Shown in pieces: positions 986 to 61,194 of a DNA stretch of 64,000 nucleotides. A program made the position numbers and the translations under genes. Within the stretch, counting starts at the first letter, position 1, and the number at the start of each line of letters is the position of its first letter. Source of the DNA: Periplaneta americana (lineage: Eukaryota > Arthropoda > Insecta > Blattodea > Blattidae); the NCBI RefSeq assembly GCF_040183065.1, contig NC_091120.1, positions 23,058,708 through 23,122,707 of the forward strand, read 5' to 3'. The notes under the pieces are model-generated. The model was not told where the DNA came from. It saw nothing but the letters and a program-made list of their open reading frames with translations, and made no database searches.

Positions 986-1226
986 TGTACAGGGTTGGGC
1001 AGATGAAACCGGCCCCATCTCGTCATATGATTTGGAAAATAAATAATGTAGGGTATTGTTTTCTTTTCTTTCTTTTTTCTTGAAAATGTAATTATGTTGG
1101 CTATACTGTATCTTCCGCGTGTTTTGTGTCATTGTTGTTGCGCCATTGTTGCTTATAACCTCTTCTGGTCGCTGTTTAAAAGTCAGACGTTCTAAACACA
1201 TGTAAAGAGTTGTTTTTTAAATAAGC

Positions 1227-2117
1227 ATGACTTATTCAATACCAGAGCGAATATTCATTGTGGAGGCGTGCGTACAGACCAGCTCTATTAAGGAAACACA
1301 ACAATTATTCAGAGACAAATATCCGCTTCGCTCAGTACCAGCGAAAAGCAGCATTCAAGATTTGGTGCGAAAATGGCGCACGACTGGATCCATAAAAAAT
1401 GTAACAAGGAACAGAACTCCTTCTGTCCGGACTCCTTCTGGATCCATAAAAAATGTAACAAGGAACAGAACTCCTTCTGTCGTGACTCCTTCTGGATCCA
1501 TAAAAAATGTAACAAGGAACAGAACTCCTTCTGTCCGGACTCCTTCTGGATCCATAAAAAATGTTACAAGGAACAGAACTCCTTCTGTCCGGACTCCTTC
1601 TGGATCCATAAAAAATGTAACAAGGAACAGAACTCCTTCTGTCCGGACTCCTTCTGTCCGGACTCCTTCTGGATCCATCAAAAATGTAACAAGGAACAGA
1701 ACTCCTTCTGTCGTGACTCCTTCTGGATCCATCAAAAATGTATCAAGGAACAGAACTCCTTCTGTCCGGACTCCTTCTGGATCCATAAAAAATGTAACAA
1801 GGAACAGAACTCCTTCTGTCCGGACTCCTTCTGGATCCATAAAAAATGTAACAAGGAACAGAACTCCTTCTGTCCGGACTCCTTCTGGAACCATAAAAAA
1901 TGTAACAAGGAACAGAATTCCTTCTGTCCGGACTCCTTCTGGATCCATAAAAAATGTAACAAGGAACAGAACTCCTTCTGTCGGGACTCCTCAACTTACG
2001 GCGCGAATTAATGAATTTATCACCCATGAGGAATTGACACGTGTTTTCATGAACCTGTTAAAACGTGCACAGAAGTGTCTAGATGCAGATGGAGGGCACT
2101 TCCAACATTTATTATGA
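1227..2117 (+). CDS. Deleted transposase ORF with 18-residue tandem repeats
   Basis: A 296-residue open frame inside the transposon at 988-2218. Residues 1 to about 55 resemble the helix-turn-helix N-terminus of a Tc1/mariner-like transposase group found in insects (YSIPERIFIVEACVQTSSI, later LVRKWRTTGSI). Residues about 54-255 are eleven near-identical copies of GSIKNVTRNRTPSVRTPS, the linker that normally follows the DNA-binding domain. The last 40 residues (FITHEELTRVFMNLLKRAQK through HFQHLL) resemble the usual transposase C-terminus. No DDE/D catalytic motif remains. The repeat unit is 54 bp, a multiple of three, so the frame survives expansion. It may be a dead relic or a DNA-binding-only protein; nothing shows that it is expressed. 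Confidence 0.55.
   Translation: MTYSIPERIFIVEACVQTSSIKETQQLFRDKYPLRSVPAKSSIQDLVRKWRTTGSIKNVTRNRTPSVRTPSGSIKNVTRNRTPSVVTPSGSIKNVTRNRTPSVRTPSGSIKNVTRNRTPSVRTPSGSIKNVTRNRTPSVRTPSVRTPSGSIKNVTRNRTPSVVTPSGSIKNVSRNRTPSVRTPSGSIKNVTRNRTPSVRTPSGSIKNVTRNRTPSVRTPSGTIKNVTRNRIPSVRTPSGSIKNVTRNRTPSVGTPQLTARINEFITHEELTRVFMNLLKRAQKCLDADGGHFQHLL
1386..1994 (+). repeat. 54-bp minisatellite, 11 units
   Basis: Units start at 1386, 1440, 1494, 1548, 1602, 1671, 1725, 1779, 1833, 1887 and 1941, each opening with a GGATCC (GGAACC in one). The fifth unit carries an extra 15 bp (a repeated SVRTP). Units differ at only a few bases, so expansion is recent. Several frames on both strands stay open across it, which produces shadow ORFs. 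Confidence 0.95.
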
Positions 2118-2218
2118 AGGTACATGCATTTTATTTTCATTCCATTTGAAGTTTGTTTCAAATCATTAGTACCTATCAATGTCATAACACGGGCCGGTTT
2201 TATCTGCCCAACCCTGTA

Positions 2219-11794: not shown

Positions 11795-11988
11795 TCTAGT
11801 GTGTTGAGTTTTTGGTTTTTGGGTTGTACGTGTAGGATTTCCATGTCTGTATTTATGTTATTGTATGTGTGGTTAGCATTAGTTATGTGTTCGGCATATG
11901 TAGATGTATTGTGTCCTCTGGTTATTGCTTTAATATGTTCTTTGTATCGAGTTTGGAATGATCTGCCTGTCTGTCCAATGTAGAAAAG

Positions 11989-13488
11989 CAATAACCAGAG
12001 GACACAATACATCTACATATATGCCGAACACATAACTAATGCTAACCACACATACAGGGACATCATTTTATTTTTACTTCAATTTTTATTGTACCTGAGT
12101 TTTTGAATGTACTTCACTCCCACCCCTTCTACTAGTAAACTTCCAACCGTTCACGACACAGAACCGAGGGCGCATAAGCAGTACTGAGTTAGCGAGTACA
12201 GTACGTTCCAGAAATATGTTCGCGTTTTCCAGTGACGAAAGAGCTTTCAATATTGAATGACATTTTGGCACAGGTACTATCGTCCGTTTGCCTACGTCGT
12301 ATCCCGGTTTCCCCCACCTGCTTCTGTTCGCCCCTCTGTAAAGTCTAGTAGCTGGGCTGTCTTAGCTCTTTTCTGAAAAAATTTCTGTTAGGAATTGGAC
12401 GTCTACGTAATATTATACAACTGTTTAAAATAACTTAAATAAAAGGGCCTCGTTAAGTAATTAACTGTCACGTGACCCCTCCCTTTCTACGACCCTGCAA
12501 CAAAACCACTTGAACGGACAGTAGATAGCATTTCTGAGTAATTTTATCTTTCGGATCGGGCAGAAGTGAAGAATGAATTTACAGTACATAAGGTACTCTT
12601 TTATAGAGTAGGTACTGAATTATTTCAACATGAGTTACTAGAACGAAGGAGGAAACTGGTAATTGGAATTAGGTACAATAGTCTATAGAGTGATAATATG
12701 CACAAAAGAACTGAAGCCTGTATCGAAATGAATGGCCACCATTTTCAAAAATGTGTTTAAATATCCATATTATGATTATTTTTCAATTTAACTTCATTCT
12801 CTATATTGTACGCTAATGTGCTGTAACAGTACAATATACATTGCTTAATTAATACGTCCGAATGGATAGCTCAATTCGTGAGTAAAAACACTAAGTGTTA
12901 ATACATTACTGTATTTTGATTAAACAAAAACCTAATGAAAATTATCAAACTCAAAATTGCGATATTTCCTAGTTTACATAAATGGATGAACTACTTTTCT
13001 TCCCTCCTATACCTAGTAAAGTGATTTGTATTTTACGCCAGTATCATTGAACTCCAGTCGTGGAAGGGGAAGCAAACGGTGTTTCCTGTTTCAATCGTTA
13101 ATAGAAAGGTATAGCCAGGTTAATATTAAAAATGTTAGTAAAAATAAAATGATGTCCCTGTACAATAACATAAATACAGACATGGAAATCCTACACATAC
13201 AACCCAAAAACCAAAAACTCAACACACTAGAACAATATGAAATATACAGACACACTAAAACACACCCCAGTCAAATTTTTAACACACAGATCAATTTCTC
13301 ACACACACTATTTGACACAACTCTTCATCACACGAACGCACCCACACAACAGGCAGCGAAGTTGAGATAGCGCCGAGATCTAGTAGGTTCTGAGGATGGT
13401 GTCAAGTAGCACCGAAACAGCTGTAAGCCGCACATGCTTACATAATTAACATGAGTAAGATCGCCATTTAATCAATTATTTATATTTA
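11989..13488 (+). mobile_element. Penelope-like element, 3' part, plus copy
   Basis: Plus-strand sequence at 11989-12054 and 13161-13488 joins across the insertion at 12055-13160. It matches the minus copy at 10920-11988. The downstream part encodes NNINTDMEILHIQPKNQK, EQYEIYRHTKTHPSQIF and TQQAAKLR then stop at 13370, the C-terminus after the GIY-YIG motif. The 3' UTR shows the conserved stretch through GCACATGCTTACATAAT. It begins further 3' in the element than the minus copy does, and the two meet at 11988/11989. Confidence 0.85.
12055..13160 (+). mobile_element. Non-autonomous TA-flanked transposon, copy 1 of 3
   Basis: The ends are CAGGGACATCATTTTATTTT and its inverse, with TA on both sides (12053-12054 and 13161-13162). 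The empty site can be read in the minus Penelope copy (CACATACAATAAC), which proves insertion with TA duplication. There is no ORF with a transposase motif. Copies 2 (26926-28015) and 3 (58149-59336) share the interior. TA duplication and CAGGG ends suggest a Tc1/mariner-pogo relative. Confidence 0.92.
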
Positions 13489-15071: not shown

Positions 15072-16088
15072 TAAGGTGAAATGGGCGATTTTCAGATTCG
15101 TGTTTTTTCGGCTGTTGTCGGGTATTTTAATTGCTACATGCACCAGGCTATTCTTCATTCAATAGTATTCATTTATAATGGATGGTTGGACGGTGAACAA
15201 TGTGCTTTTGCTATTAAGACATATTATAAAAATAATGATAGTTTCATTGCTGCACAACGACAGACATTACAAAATGCTGATAAAATAAACCGCATGACTT
15301 TTGCCAACAATTCTTGGATCTAAATGTTAACGAAGACATTGTCCACAATATGCTGATGAGTGATGAAGCTCATTTTCTTCTCTCTGGATACGTCAGTAAA
15401 CAAAACTTTCCATACTGGTCACCAACCCTTATGAAATGCATAAGTAGCCATTACACAGTGTCAAAGTCACAGTTTGGTGTGCAATAGCGTAATTTGGAAT
15501 CATCGGTCCTTATTTCTTTGAGGACGATAATGGGACATCTGTTACTGTAACATCACAGCGATATGCCCGAATGATTCAAGAATTTTTGTCTCCACAAATT
15601 GGCAATAATCCTCTCATCTATAGAGACACGTGGTGTCAACAGGATGGTGCGACCAGTCACACGGCTAGATGCTTCATGGATGCAGTCAGACGTTTATTTC
15701 CAAACCACATTGTCAATTCATGGCCTGCGAGATCTCCAGATCTGACAGCATGAAAATTTTTCTTATGAAGATATTTGAAGAGTATGGTCTTCAAAAATCC
15801 ACCTCCACAGAACATAGAAGAACTCAAAGAAAAAATTGGTCATGAAGTTGCTGAAATTTCTGTGGACATGTTGCGTCGTGTAATGGGAAACATACAACTT
15901 AGACTTGAAGAATGTGTGCAACTAAATGGGTTCCACCTGCAGGATGTAGTGTTCAAAATAATAATTTCATGAGGTACAGGTAAATGCTATTGTATATACT
16001 TTAAATGTAAAGTGAAAGTTTTGTTTCAAAGAAATCAGTGCAATAATTATTAAAGTTTTAAAATCGTCCGTTTCATTAGCTCACCTTG
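15072..16088 (+). mobile_element. Decayed Tc1/mariner-type transposon with TA flanks
   Basis: The ends TAAGGTG and CACCTTG with an inner shared CGATTTT block form imperfect inverted repeats about 23-30 bp long, flanked by TA at 15070-15071 and 16089-16090. The interior is a transposase pseudogene (next entry). Confidence 0.75.
15180..15972 (+). pseudogene. Mariner-like transposase pseudogene (DUF4817-type N-terminus, DDE_3-like core)
   Basis: The N-terminal piece reads GEQCAFAIKTYYKNNDSFIA, then jumps by deletion to NADKINRMTFA. The catalytic core follows in broken frames: MSDEAHF (first Asp), TWCQQDGATSHTARCFMDAV (second Asp) and WPARSPDL (region of the third acidic residue). A C-terminal tail with EEISVDMLRRVM-like residues ends near 15972. 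Stops and frameshifts occur near 15322, 15487 and 15752. A full protein of this kind has about 350 residues. No function remains. Confidence 0.85.
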
Positions 16089-22481: not shown

Positions 22482-25400
22482 ACATGTCTGTATGTCATGC
22501 CTATCCATCTACCCGTCTACTTGTCTGTCTGTATGTCAGTCTACCTGTCTATCTGTCTCTATGTTCGTCTACCTGTCCATATGTCCATCTACCCGTCTAC
22601 CTATCTGTCTGTCTCTATGTCAGTCTACCTGTCCGTCTACCTGTCCGTCTACCTCTCTATGTCAATCTGCCCGTCTACCTGTCTGTGTGTATGTCCATCT
22701 ACCGTCCACTTGTCTGTGTATATGTCCATCTACCCGTCTATCTGTCTGTGTGTATGTCCATCTACCGTCCACTTGTCTGTGTATATGTCCATCTACCCGT
22801 CTATCTGTCTGTGTGTATGTCCATCTACCGTCCACTTGTCTGTGTATATGTCCATCTACCCATCTATCTGTCTGTGTGTATGTCCATCTACCGTCCACTT
22901 GTCTGTGTATATGTCCATCTACCCGTCTATCTGTCTGTGTGTATGCCCATCTACCGTCCACTTGTCTGTGTATATGTCCATCTACCCGTCTATCTGTCTG
23001 TGTGTATGTCCATCTACCGTCCACTTGTCTGTGTATATGTCCATCTACCCGTCTATCTGTATGTGTGTATGTTCATCTACCGTCCACTTGTCTGTGTATA
23101 TGTCCATCTACCCGTCTATCTGTCTGTGTGTATGTCCATCTACCGTCCACTTGTCTGTGTATATGTCCATCTACCCGTCTATCTGTCTGTGTGTATGTCC
23201 ATCTACCGTCCACTTGTCTGTGTATATGTCCATCTACCCGTCTATCTGTCTGTGTGTATGTCCATCTACCGTCCACTTGTCTGTGTATATGTCCATCTAC
23301 CCGTCTATCTGTCTGTGTGTATGTCCATCTACCGTCCACTTGTCTGTGTATATGTCCATCTACCCGTCTATCTGTCTGTGTGTATGCCCATCTACCGTCC
23401 ACTTGTCTGTGTATATGTCCATCTACCCGTCTATCTGTGTGTATGTCCATCTACCGTCCACCTGTCTGTGTATATGTCCATCTACCCGTCTATCTGTCTG
23501 TGTGTATGTCCATCTACCGTCCACTTGTCTGTGTATATGTCCATCTACCCGTCTATCTGTCTGTGTGTATGTCCATCTACCGTCCACTTGTCTGTGTATA
23601 TGTCCATCTACCCGTCTATCTGTCTGTGTGTATGTCCATCTACCGTCCACTTGTCTGTGTATATGTCCATCTACCCGTCTATCTGTCTGTGTGTATGCCC
23701 ATCTACCGTCCACTTGTCTGTGTATATGTCCATCTACCCGTCTATCTGTGTGTATGTCCATCTACCGTCCACTTGTCTGTGTATATGTCCATCTACCCGT
23801 CTATCTGTCTGTGTGTATGCCCATCTACCGTCCACTTGTCTGTGTATATGTCCATCTACCCGTCTATCTGTGTGTATGTCCATCTACCGTCCACCTGTCT
23901 GTGTATATGTCCATCTACCCGTCTATCTGTCTGTGTGTATGTCCATCTACCGTCCACTTGTCTGTGTATATGTCCATCTACCCGTCTATCTGTCTGTGTG
24001 TATGTCCATCTACCGTCCACTTGTCTGTGTATATGTCCATCTACCCGTCTATCTTTCTGTGTATATGTCCATCTACCGTCCACTTGTCTGTGTATATGTC
24101 CATCTACCCGTCTATCTGTCTGTGTGTATGCCCATCTACCGTCCACTTGTCTGTGTATATGTCCATCTACCCGTCTATCTGTCTGTGTGTATGTCCATCT
24201 ACCGTCCACTTGTCTGTGTATATGTCCATCTACCCGTCTATCTGTATGTGTGTATGTTCATCTACCGTCCACTTGTCTGTGTATATGTCCATATACCCGT
24301 CTATCTGTCTGTGTGTATGTCCATCTACCGTCCACTTGTCTGTGTATATGTCCATATACCCGTCTATCTGTCTGTGTGTATGTCCATCTACCGTCCACTT
24401 GTCTGTGTATATGTCCATCTACCCGTCTATCTGTCTGTGTGTATGTCCATCTACCGTCCACTTGTCTGTGTATATGTCCATATACCCGTCTATCTGTCTG
24501 TGTATATGTCCATCTACCCGTCTATCTGTCTGTGTGTATGTCCATCTACCGTCCACTTGTCTGTGTATATGTCCATATACCCGTCCACTTGTCTGTGTAT
24601 ATGTCCATCTACCCGTCTATCTGTCTGTGTGTATGCCCATCTACCGTCCACTTGTCTGTGTATATGTCCATCTACCCGTCTATCTGTCTGTGTGTATGTC
24701 CATCTACCGTCCACTTGTCTGTGTATATGTCCATCTACCCGTCTATCTGTATGTGTGTATGTTCATCTACCGTCCACTTGTCTGTGTATATGTCCATATA
24801 CCCGTCTATCTGTCTGTGTGTATGTCCATCTACCGTCCACTTGTCTGTGTATATGTCCATATACCCGTCTATCTGTCTGTGTGTATGTCCATCTACCGTC
24901 CACTTGTCTGTGTATATGTCCATCTACCCGTCTATCTGTCTGTGTGTATGTCCATCTACCGTCCACTTGTCTGTGTATATGTCCATATACCCGTCTATCT
25001 GTCTGTGTATATGTCCATCTACCCGTCTATCTGTCTGTGTGTATGTCCATCTACCGTCCACTTGTCTGTGTATATGTCCATATACCCGTCTATTTGTCTG
25101 TGTGTATGTCCATCTACCGTCCACTTGTCTGTGTATATGTCCATCTACCCGTCTATCTGTCTGTGTGTATGTCCAACTACCCGTCTATCTGTCTGTGTGT
25201 ATGTCCATCTACCGTCTACTTGTCTGTCTGTATGTTCATCTACCCCTCTATGTCCGTCTATCTGTCTGCCTCTTTGTCCGTTTACTTGTCTATCTGTATG
25301 TCCATCAACCCGTCTACCTGTCTGTCTGTATGTCCATCTACCCGTCTACCTGTCTGTCTGTCTGTCTGTATGTCCATCTACCCCTCTATGTCCGTCTATC

Positions 25401-26047
25401 TGTCTGTCTCTATGTCAGTTTACCTGTCTATCTGTATGTCCATCTACCGTCTACTTGTCTGTCTGTATGTCCATCTACCCCTCTATGTCCGTCTATCTGT
25501 TTGTCTCTATGTCCGTTTACCTGTCTATCTGTATGTCCATCTACCATCTACTTGTCTGTGTATATGTCCATCTACCCGTCTACTTGTCTGTCTGTATGTC
25601 CATCTACCCCTCTATGTCCGTCTATCTGTCTGTCTCTATGTCCGTTTACCTGTTTATCTGTATGTCCATCTACCGTCTACTTGTCTGTGTATATGTCCAG
25701 CTACCCGTCTACTTGTCTGTCTGTATGTCCATCTACCCCTCTATGTCCGTCTATCTGTCTGTCTCTATGTCCGTCTACCTGTCTGTCTGTATGTCCATCT
25801 ACCCCTCTATGTCCGTCTATCTGTCTGTCTGTATGTCCATCTACCCATCCATCTATCTGTCTGTCTGTCTGTTTCTATATCCGTCTACCTGTCTGTATGT
25901 CAATCTATCTGTCTACCCGTCTACCTCTGTCTGTCTGTCTGTATGTCCATCTATATGTCTATCCGTCTACCTCTGTCTGTCTGTCTGTATGTCCATTTAC
26001 CCGTCTACTTGTCTGTCTGTCTGTCTGTACGTTTGTTAGTCTGTCTG
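22482..26047 (+). repeat. 63-bp satellite array (about 40 units) with simple CTGT-rich flanks
   Basis: From about 22690 to 25200 a 63-bp unit repeats. Each unit is a dimer of two related halves of about 31 bp: ATGTCCATCTACCGTCCACT and ATGTCCATCTACCCGTCTAT, each followed by CTGT-rich sequence. Variant units lack 4 bp or replace CATCT with CATAT. The flanks (22482-22690 and 25200-26047) are looser CTGT/GTCT repeats. No stop codon occurs in any plus frame, giving three overlapping 1,200-codon artefact ORFs rich in C, Y, S, L and V. Confidence 0.97.
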
Positions 26048-26919: not shown

Positions 26920-26925
26920 AAAGTA

Positions 26926-28015
26926 CAGGGACATCATTTTATTTTTACTAACATTTCTAATATTAACCTGGCTATACCTTTGCATCAACGATTAAGAACC
27001 TGAAACACCGTTTGCTAACTCCTTCCACGACTGGAGTTCAATGATACTGGCGTAATATACAAACAAATCACTTTACTAGGTATAGGAGGGAAGAAAAGTA
27101 GTTCATCCATTTACGTAAACTAGGAAATATTGCGCTTTTGAGTTTGATAATCTTCATTAGGTTTTTGTTTAATCAAAGTACAGTACAGTATTAACAATGA
27201 GTGTTTTTACTCATGAACTGAGCTTTCCATGCGGACGTATTCATTATGCAGTGTATATTATACTGTCTATATACATTAGCGTACACTATAGAGAATGAAG
27301 TTAAATTGAAAAATAATCATAATATGGATATTTAAACACATTTTTTAAAATGGTGGCTGTTCATTTCGATACAGGCTTCAGTTCTAATGTGCATATTATC
27401 GCACTATAGACTACTGTACGTAATTCCAATTACCAGGTTCGTACTTCGTATCAGTAACTCATGTTGAAATATTTCTGTACGTACTCTATAAAAGAGACCT
27501 TACGTACTGTAAATTCAATCTTCATTTCTGCCCGATCCGAAAAGATAAAATTACTCAGACATGCTATCTACTGTCCGTCCAAGTGGTTACGTCGCAGCGT
27601 CGTAGGAAGGGAGGAAATCACGTGACAGTTAATTACTTAACGAGGTCCTTTTATTTAAGTTATTTTAAACAATTGTATGGGTATAATATTACGTAGACGT
27701 CCAATTCCTAACAGAAATTAATGTTCCCAGAAAAGAGCTAAGACACCCCAGCCACTAGCATTTACAGAGAGGCGAATAGAAACAGGTGGGGGAAACCGGG
27801 ATGCGAAGTAGGCAAATGGAAAATGATGCAATATTGAAAGCTCTTTCGTCACTGTAAAACGCGAACATATTTTTGGAACGTACTGTTTACTATGACCATA
27901 AGGCTACTATGACTGTATTGCGGTCTTGGATCTGTGTGGAGGACGGTTTAAAGGGGTGGGAGTGAAAAAACTCAGGTACAATAAAAATTGAAGTAAAAAT
28001 AAAATGATGTCCCTG
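26926..28015 (-). mobile_element. Non-autonomous TA-flanked transposon, copy 2 of 3
   Basis: Reverse orientation to copies 1 and 3. The ends CAGGGACATCATTTTATTTT and inverse have TA at 26924-26925 and 28016-28017. The interior aligns along its length with 12055-13160, including the CATATTATGATTATTTTTC region. No coding capacity. Confidence 0.92.
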
Positions 28016-28017
28016 TA

Positions 28018-40943: not shown

Positions 40944-41226
40944 TAAATTGACAAAGTATCCTATAGGATACAACAGGTTAATAGGCTACATGCTATAATT
41001 TTAATAGAACAATAGGAAAAAAATTGGTAGGAAAATTAAAATTTCACAATACTATAATATTGTACAACATATAAAAATATGGACATTGCGATAGTTGTTT
41101 TCTTCACGGTCCGACAAAGTTTAATAAACTAGTGTGAGAAATGAAGCTTTGCCAAGTTAAGGGTTAACCAGGGCCGGGAAACAGCCACTCTCGGAGAGCT
41201 TAGCTTCTCCCGCTACAGTTGCTGTT

Positions 41227-41669
41227 GTACGCAGATACCCATGCTGACTGCTCTGTTTACAATACGAGTTTCCCACACCTGCTCTTATCCTCTGTTCCTC
41301 TCTCAAAGTGAGAGTCCAAGTTTCTCAACCATACAGAACCGGTACTGGTAAGTAACTTCTTCTAATTTTAATTTGTACGCAGATACCCATGCTGACTGCT
41401 CTGTTTACAATACGAGTTTCCCACACCTGCTCTTATCCTCTGTTCCTCTCTCAAAGTGAGAGTCCAAGTTTCTCAACCATACAGAACCGGTACCGGTAAG
41501 TAACTTCTTCTAATTTTAATTTGTACGCAGATACCCATGCTGACTGCTCTGTTTACAATACGAGTTTCCCACACCTGCTCTTATCCTCTGTTCCTCTCTC
41601 AAAGTGAGAGTCCAAGTTTCTCAACCATACAGAACCGGTACCGGTAAGTAACTTGTTCTAATTTTAATA
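41227..41669. repeat. 148-bp tandem triplication containing an RTE-like fragment
   Basis: Units start at 41227, 41375 and 41523 (GTACGCAGATACCCATGCTG). Each includes a minus-strand RTE-like piece (CTCTCAAAGTGAGAGTCC to CATACAGAACCGGTA) joined to unrelated DNA. The units differ at only one or two bases, so amplification is very recent. Confidence 0.95.
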
Positions 41670-59871: not shown

Positions 59872-61194
59872 ACTACTACTAGGTTCAAAAAGTTCCCGGA
59901 ATTTTACTACCATTTTTCGTATTAATATATAACAAGGGATATTATACATTTGTTTTGTTGGTAACATTCATGATGTCATTTCCTTAAAGTTTGTTGATAA
60001 TGGCGATTGTTGGTTTTGAGTTGTAGGCAATTGTTTATCATAGTGTTTTGTTTGTTCGTCGCTTTTTGTAATTATGTCCACAGAGCAACGTACAAACATC
60101 AAGTTCTGTGTTTTGTTACACAAAACTCCTGCAGAGACATTAAGATTGTTGGAAGAAGCATATGGCGAAGCAGCAATGAAAAAAACTCAAGTGTATGCCT
60201 GGCATAAACGCTTTTCTGGTGGCCGTGATAGCATCAAAGATGATGTACGCAGCGGCCGACCAACAACTGCAACAAATGAAGCAATCGCTCAGCGTGTGCG
60301 TAATGTTGTGAGGGACGACCGACGTAAAACCATAAAAGAGATAGCAGCAGAGGTCGGAATATCAGTCGGAAGTGTACACAATGTTCTTCACAAGCATCTC
60401 AACATGCATTACGTGTCTCAGAAGTTAGTTCCGAAAATGTTGTCGGCAGAACAGAAAGAAACAAGAATGACTCTTGCTGGGGACATGATCAGTATGGCTG
60501 ATGAAGATGGTGATTTCTTAAACAAAATTATTGCTGGTGATGAAACTTGGTGCTACTTGTACGACCCAGTCCCTAAACGACAGTCATCTGGGTGGAAATC
60601 GAAAACATCTCCTCGGAAGCAAAAATTTCCTAGGGACACTTCCAAAGGCAAAGTTATGTTGGAAGTTTTCTTCGACTCTCAGGGTCTCATCCACCATGAG
60701 TTCATTCCAGAAGGTCGTACTGTAACGAAAGAATTGTACGTAGAAATCCTCCGTCGCCTTCGGGACGCAGTGAGAAGGAAACGTCCAGAAAAGTGGGTAG
60801 AAAACAACTGGTTCCTTATGCATGACAATGCACCTGCTCATCGCGCAATTATTGTAAAGAATTTTCTTGCCATGCACAACATAACTGCTTTGGATCACCC
60901 GCCATACTCTCCTGATCTCTCACCACCTGATTACTTTCTGTTTCCCCGTCTGAAAAGTGATCTGAAAGGACGGAGATTCAATGCTGAAGAGGTTATCGCA
61001 AACGCGACGAGAGCACTAAGACGGGTTTCACAAAATGGCTTCCAGGCCTGCTTCCAGGAACTCTACACGCGTTGGCAAAAGTGTGTTGTTGCGGAAGGCA
61101 ACTATTTTGAAGGGAATGCTGTAGAATAGTGTTTAAGGTACGTTGTTTCTATGATATTAGCAAATTCCGGGAACTTTTTGAACCTAGTAGTAGT
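59872..61194 (+). mobile_element. Complete mariner transposon
   Basis: Perfect 33-bp inverted repeats (59872-59904 and 61162-61194) run ACTACTACTAGGTTC then AAAAAGTTCCCGG and AATTT. TA lies outside on the left (59870-59871) and overlaps the last base on the right. The ACT repeats at the ends may belong to the target, which would shorten the true TIR. The length of 1.32 kb is normal for mariner. It encodes one uninterrupted transposase. Confidence 0.95.
60074..61129 (+). CDS. Mariner transposase, full length
   Basis: A 351-residue enzyme that cuts and pastes its own element at TA sites in the nucleus. Residues 1-50 are the first helix-turn-helix (FCVLLHKTPAETLRLLEEAY, then VYAWHKRFSGG), and 60-110 the second, with the GRP linker at 61-63 (KEIAAEVGISVGSVHNVLHK). 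QKLVPKML (116-123) holds the place of the WVPHEL interface motif. The catalytic triad is D156 (GDETW), D251 (HDNAPAH) and D286 (SPPDYF). There are exactly 34 residues between the last two, the mariner D34D signature, and YSPDL sits at 278-282. There is no stop, frameshift or missing key residue. The upstream in-frame ORF start at 60007 is a different frame. Similar proteins are often auto-named SETMAR-like, but there is no SET domain. The copy could be active if transcribed. Confidence 0.95.
   Translation: MSTEQRTNIKFCVLLHKTPAETLRLLEEAYGEAAMKKTQVYAWHKRFSGGRDSIKDDVRSGRPTTATNEAIAQRVRNVVRDDRRKTIKEIAAEVGISVGSVHNVLHKHLNMHYVSQKLVPKMLSAEQKETRMTLAGDMISMADEDGDFLNKIIAGDETWCYLYDPVPKRQSSGWKSKTSPRKQKFPRDTSKGKVMLEVFFDSQGLIHHEFIPEGRTVTKELYVEILRRLRDAVRRKRPEKWVENNWFLMHDNAPAHRAIIVKNFLAMHNITALDHPPYSPDLSPPDYFLFPRLKSDLKGRRFNAEEVIANATRALRRVSQNGFQACFQELYTRWQKCVVAEGNYFEGNAVE

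Follow-up and report, generated by a model that had tools for sequence, protein, structure and literature searches.

A minisatellite of transposase linker units and its open reading frame in an internally deleted Tc1/mariner-like element of Periplaneta americana

The birth of tandem repeats from transposons and MITEs has been reviewed (PMC9659126) and, going by the portions of the source papers available, internal tandem repeats occur in elements bounded by terminal inverted repeats (TIRs) such as the Merlin families (PMC8101967), Tetris (PMC4079207) and BrickBuilt, a bacterial MITE (PMC4596501). A small non-autonomous element may also encode a repressor, the precedent being KP, made by such a P element (PMC7776569, available part). 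The locus described here, an array with an open reading frame through it inside a transposon, touches on both themes. In mammalian LINE-1, a retrotransposon, ORF1 carries in-frame length repeats and the functional protein is retained. An array made of transposase linker, as found here, is named in no title or abstract opening among the records listed from the open-access literature that was searched; one paper there contains both DUF4817 and transposase.

The locus lies in a window of 64,000 nucleotides of Periplaneta americana DNA, the whole stretch that was analysed. Our preferred reading, to which we give a probability of roughly 0.88, is that the copy in the window is a non-autonomous, internally deleted member of a Tc1/mariner-like family with a DUF4817-type transposase, the family having been active recently, that its minisatellite is neutral and that its frame is open by chance. 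No function of the predicted 296-aa product would be needed for this explanation, the best one that the sequence offers.

The element and its full-length parent

The element spans 990-2216 with TA on each side, and its 26-nt TIRs, rated as good in a first-pass annotation made from the letters of the window, are identical at 25 of 26 positions; with as many as 3 mismatches allowed, the window holds two matches to the TIR pattern where 0 are expected. The features of this copy are as follows.

988-989, unstranded: left TA target-site duplication, read from the sequence
990-1015, + strand: left terminal inverted repeat, 26 nt, by inverted-repeat and pattern search
1016-1226, + strand: 5' untranslated part of the element, common to the full-length parent
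1227-2117, + strand: ORF, 296 aa, predicted net charge +46, of which the repeats make up 42
1239-1394, + strand: DUF4817 helix-turn-helix (HTH1), Pfam PF16087, E 2.2e-12
1386-1991, + strand: HTH1-HTH2 linker in eleven tandem copies, period 54 bp, by TRF
1602-1670, + strand: unit 5, with an extra 15-bp copy of ACTCCTTCTGTCCGG, by TRF
1992-2018, + strand: remnant of the HTH2 start, QLTARINEF, the native continuation of the linker, by comparison with L022, L033 and L047
2018-2021, + strand: join left by the internal deletion of 702 bp, with microhomology (TAT) at 2018-2020
2019-2117, + strand: transposase C-terminal tail including the stop (2019-2114 plus stop), which also ends the full-length proteins of L044 and L047
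2118-2190, + strand: 3' untranslated part of the element
2191-2216, - strand: right terminal inverted repeat
2217-2218, unstranded: right TA target-site duplication

The helix-turn-helix-like N-terminus first suspected from the sequence corresponds to the Pfam DUF4817 match, which covers residues 5-56 of the ORF, and the window copy keeps both this DNA-binding domain and an open frame. A PDB search with the 296-aa ORF returned a single match at E 0.87, which was discounted, and no relatives of the element were found in viral_contigs or genome_contigs. A DUF3020 match in the repeat region reached 30 bits over the whole protein against a cut-off of 25, with no single stretch passing; together with five further Pfam matches in this region, of which no stretch passes alone, it was rejected as a repeat artefact. 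The units start at 1386, 1440, 1494, 1548, 1602, 1671, 1725, 1779, 1833, 1887 and 1941, and the description of eleven in-frame 54-bp copies is borne out in that ten are of 54 bp and unit 5 is of 69 bp with the ORF remaining open, the in-frame expansion of 15 bp reported for one unit being the extra ACTCCTTCTGTCCGG of unit 5. The final three bases of unit 11 belong to the native continuation. Over 51 bases, five of the eleven show no difference at all (unit 5 taken without its extra 15), and the mean pairwise difference over the 55 pairs is 3.6%.

Several other repeats and elements were observed in the window. A second minisatellite (22658-25803; 63-bp unit, about 50 units) is stop-free in all three + frames over more than 3 kb and is a trap for gene finders, and a 148-bp unit stands in three tandem copies with 99% matches at 41225-41668. 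A decayed DUF4817-type copy at 15140-15960 contains frameshifts and stops, DDE-like remnants and a C-tail; its N-terminal match lies at the Pfam cut-off, and HTH1 gave no alignment above shuffles with its N-terminus at 15177. Two copies of an element with TA-CAGGG-TIRs, at 12053-13162 and 26924-28017, are 86% alike on opposite strands and bear transposase C-tail-like fragments, that of the second being very weak; the former sits inside a longer inverted repeat (11795-11865 and 13161-13231).

The host genome (3.23 Gb in 91 contigs) was searched with the element, yielding 76 matches from the 40 candidates scored out of 446, and with the start of the coding region, which at up to 2 mismatches has 213 matches, repeats inside one copy being counted. 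The best element-search matches, further matches and sites from the first 100 of these 213 gave 111 distinct copies that were parsed, a non-random sample chosen partly by likeness to the window copy. Other copies and a full-length parent of 1,373 bp, to which the first-pass annotation had looked as a check on its proposal, were thereby recovered from the same genome. Full-length copies measure about 1,373 bp, and seven of the 111 are of the full type, the transposase frame being open in three (L047 and L044, 345 aa each, and L057, 344 aa).

In the L047 protein, Pfam places DUF4817 at residues 5-56, HTH_Tnp_Tc3_2 at 75-135 (E 9e-6, below the curated cut-off) and DDE_3 at 171-303 (just below the curated cut-off), and SETMAR, which contains a mariner transposase, is a PDB relative (E 9e-6). 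Of its Asp residues D155, D241 and D276, the last two are separated by 34 residues, the spacing of a mariner-like DD34D motif. Judged by these predicted domains, the parent is Tc1/mariner-like, with a paired HTH and a DDE/D domain. A further mariner, apparently intact from its perfect 33-nt inverted repeats and uninterrupted 351-aa frame (Transposase_1, E 4e-16), was observed at 59872-61194 of the window. The L047 protein is related to this mariner (60074-61126 of the window), at 24% over 317 positions.

Parent residues 57-74, between the two HTHs, account for most of the repeated segment, whose counterpart in the alignment with the window's mariner is the linker SIKDDVRSGRP. The proposed origin of the unit in an inter-domain linker is correct as to the linker, which in the parent, however, separates HTH1 from HTH2 and does not adjoin the catalytic domain. 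L047 and the window copy have in common the TIRs, the TA target duplication, HTH1, the linker and the C-tail, and their outer parts differ by only a few per cent in the tree; L047 has HTH2, a DDE domain and a single linker copy, whereas the window copy is without HTH2 and DDE and has eleven linkers. Of the stretch first assigned to the C-terminal tail, 2019-2114 was rightly placed, whereas 1992-2018 (QLTARINEF) is the start of the parent's HTH2.

Parent codons 80-313 (702 bp, in frame) are absent from the window copy, which removes HTH2 and all three catalytic Asp, and TAT is present at both ends of the deletion. The loss of the catalytic core and the presence of an in-frame linker repeat, here of eleven units, were correctly recognised at the outset; that the minisatellite had replaced the core is contradicted by the sister copies. 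The deletion form was found in 27 of the 111 parsed copies, 26 by script and, in addition, L016 (the same copy as L128), its right part sitting past a 3.1-kb insertion, while 29 of the remaining 84 could not be typed, a key sequence not having been found. Since 19 of these 27 have no detected array, the deletion and the amplification must have occurred separately. A single coupled event giving both, suggested by unit 11 leaving the repeat exactly at a unit boundary, was dropped because there are deletion copies with one unit and the native QLTARINEF continuation. The short frame of the array-free deletion form encodes HTH1, linker and tail in 111 aa, and it is kept through the tail in 8 of the 18 such copies with a recognisable linker.

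Arrays across sister copies and their origin

Eight of the 27 deletion-form copies, and none of the 84 others, have two or more linker units (Fisher P 5e-6, uncorrected for shared ancestry or likeness-biased sampling, with 18 of the 84 showing no recognisable linker). The period is mainly 56 bp in L016/L128, L018, L019, L021 and L052, where spacings of 41 and 57 bp (once each) and 55 bp (twice) also occur; it is mixed 53/56 in L020, 53 in L017 and 54 in the window copy only. As periods of 56 and 53 bp are not multiples that keep the frame, the frame is broken in the sister arrays, and the first-ATG ORF comprises 52-86 codons in the other seven array copies against 296 in the window copy, the only one in which an ORF crosses the array to the C-tail. 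The frame has already changed before or at the first unit in L052 and L019. L017 shares the CTTCTGG junction with the window copy, yet nine of its ten units lack one G, hence an array with the very junction of the window copy has become frameshifted almost throughout by a change that spread from unit to unit; of the sequence comparisons made here, none speaks more strongly against coding selection. The first-pass annotation had named beforehand, as telling against a selected protein, frameshifted repeats in other copies at the same locus; this is largely borne out, frame-breaking periods being seen in seven of the eight arrays, though at different insertion sites.

A genome-wide scan for the two junction types with up to 1 mismatch, which other or more diverged junctions would escape, found no array copy beyond the same eight; a match on C17 was rejected as unrelated sequence. 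The flanks of the eight are mutually unlike over up to 250 bases a side (left side only for L016). In a tree of 25 deletion copies and two outgroup rows (L077 dropped, L016 absent), 2 of the 24 inner branches are well supported, the bootstrap is unsettled, and the array copies form no well-supported clade. At unit position 9, A is found in 48 single-unit copies and C in 31, and both variants occur together in six of the eight arrays. This suggests either that units came from more than one family member, through gene conversion or template switching, or that the arrays descend from a founder that was already mixed.

Further rearrangements were observed in individual copies. In L069 (G000:C4:94101400-94104500) a 149-bp unit that spans the beginning of the ORF, start codon included, stands six times in tandem, a second array type from which it follows that tandem amplification reaches beyond the linker. 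The 14-unit array of L128 (1305-4494; 56-bp unit), of which one unit is split, is broken by an insert of about 3.1 kb that ends in CTAAT repeats, at a guess a retroelement. The interior of L032 (G000:C7:173097400-173099500), a family copy of 1,533 bp, includes reverse-transcriptase-like coding sequence when read by eye and is apparently an insertion of another element.

Under the preferred reading of a neutral array in a deleted element, an in-frame 702-bp deletion at the 3-bp TAT microhomology took out HTH2 and the catalytic domain in a first step, and in a second the linker between HTH1 and HTH2 was tandemly amplified in some deletion-form copies. The native linker span is 56 bp with ACT on either side (GTACGACT before GGATCC and CCTCAACT before TACGG), and the junctions suggest that joining at these ACTs would yield the 56-bp period. 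The 54-bp junction of the window copy and L017 reads ACTCCT-T-CTGG in place of ACTCCT-CAA-CTGG, as might result if synthesis first slipped by 15 bp from one ACTCCT to the other and then switched at CTG; the slip proposed for this junction is also the one seen as the 15-bp insert of unit 5. Polymerase slippage or template switching may be responsible, possibly in gap repair after excision. For the P element, the available part of PMC8951532 describes repair synthesis that is aborted after excision and concluded by alternative end joining, and a comparable abortion of repair may have caused the 702-bp deletion. From the many dispersed copies it seems probable that full-length copies mobilise the window element in trans. 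Since 54 is a multiple of three, the inherited short frame stayed open by chance; against this stands the coincidence of three frame-keeping events (the 702-bp deletion, the 54-bp unit and the 15-bp insert), of about 1 in 27 if they are independent.

An alternative that we regard as very unlikely is that the array was favoured as DNA, adding transposase-binding or enhancer sites that assist mobilisation, as has been discussed for the TIRs of Galileo and Tetris. The occurrence of eight array copies at separate places speaks for it, as does the proposal, in the part of PMC4079207 available, that tandem repeats in TIRs aid recognition. The unit, however, bore no detected likeness to the TIRs in an inverted-repeat search and a comparison of the element with the window, the array is internal to the element, and arrays are few (8 of 111 parsed copies) with no well-supported clade among them.

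Selection on the protein

The consensus unit is stop-free in five of the six frames, and the real array in three of six. Given that only 1.4% of single changes in the unit yield a stop, it is as expected that none of the 7 substitution events inferred produced one (P 0.91). These events comprise 2 synonymous and 5 non-synonymous changes, and 29% of random changes are synonymous; the bias among units that the first-pass annotation had thought worth computing is accordingly not seen. One of the 2 synonymous events, the A/C difference at unit position 9, segregates among single-unit copies and may for that reason predate the array. In 1,000 runs of a neutral simulation excluding indels, the ORF was stop-free in 59% at 2% divergence and in 32% at 5%.

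Private substitutions were counted over 100 of the 111 copies, 11 having been dropped for poor alignment, the array copy L020 included. The 236 sites before the ATG carry 133 of them and the 211 sites of the first 70 codons carry 118, at equal rates (UTR 0.00564, CDS 0.00559). The 118 coding changes divide into 25 synonymous, 86 non-synonymous and 7 stops, where the spectrum of the same copies predicts 23.5% synonymous, 71% non-synonymous and 5.4% stop (about 6 stops), and the family-wide private changes in these codons are read as neutral. By class, synonymous changes are 6 of 13 with 0 stops in the array-free deletion form (18 copies; P 0.06), 4 of 13 in the array copies (7), 3 of 6 in the full-type copies (7), and 12 of 86, below expectation, in the other deleted copies (68). 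The synonymous excess in deletion copies lacking an array, along with the short frame kept by 8 of those 18, hints weakly at constraint and is to be taken as a lead only.

These counts bear on the possibility, raised at the outset alongside chance, that the repeat ORF is selected, with HTH1 and eleven basic linkers binding the element ends and repressing transposition in the manner of KP. HTH1 and the frame are intact, 42 of the 46 net positive charges come from the repeats, the linker aligns with that of the window's mariner, KP offers a precedent, and the weak synonymous excess points the same way. Seven of the eight arrays are nevertheless frame-broken, L017 with the window copy's junction among them, the unit changes fit the neutral expectation as do the private changes of the family, and HTH2 is lost. 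Selection for a repeat protein is thus very improbable. An equally slim chance is given to a variant in which the 111-aa protein of HTH1, linker and tail would repress the parent in trans, the window copy being a tighter-binding version with eleven linkers and the out-of-frame arrays dead products.

AlphaFold2 models the repeats of the ORF as beta-strands (mean pLDDT 69), and regular beta-strands, at a lower confidence of 56, are obtained for the antisense frame also. As perfect repeats are reported to yield confident but artefactual beta-solenoids (PMC11795689, available part), the fold lends no support to repression by the protein. Least credible of all is that misassembly produced the array or its number of repeats, for though tandem arrays are difficult to assemble, the eight copies lie at separate places with unlike flanks, differing periods and internal variants, and one array (L128) holds a 3.1-kb insertion.

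Comparison with known systems

If the array is neutral, as we prefer to read it, the element shows a striking in-frame repeat protein arising by accident inside a transposon, and illustrates how sister copies in one genome can settle the reading of such an ORF. The family is also a record of minisatellite birth, with single-unit copies, two-unit copies, copies of 7 to 14 detected units and microhomology at the junctions, and may be used to study how transposons seed tandem repeats.

With mammalian LINE-1 ORF1, the window copy shares in-frame tandem repeats within the ORF of a mobile element, here a DNA transposon. Like KP of the Drosophila P element, in the part of PMC7776569 available, it is small, internally deleted, non-autonomous and endowed with an open frame. 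Biochemical evidence exists for KP, going by titles in the reference list of that paper, while the window copy is known from its sequence. To our knowledge, KP has no repeat array. A tandem array within a TIR element is common to the window copy, Merlin, Tetris and BrickBuilt; as far as the available portions of the papers on those three extend (PMC8101967, PMC4079207, PMC4596501), what sets the window copy apart is that its unit is former transposase coding sequence, with an open frame running through the array in one copy of the family.
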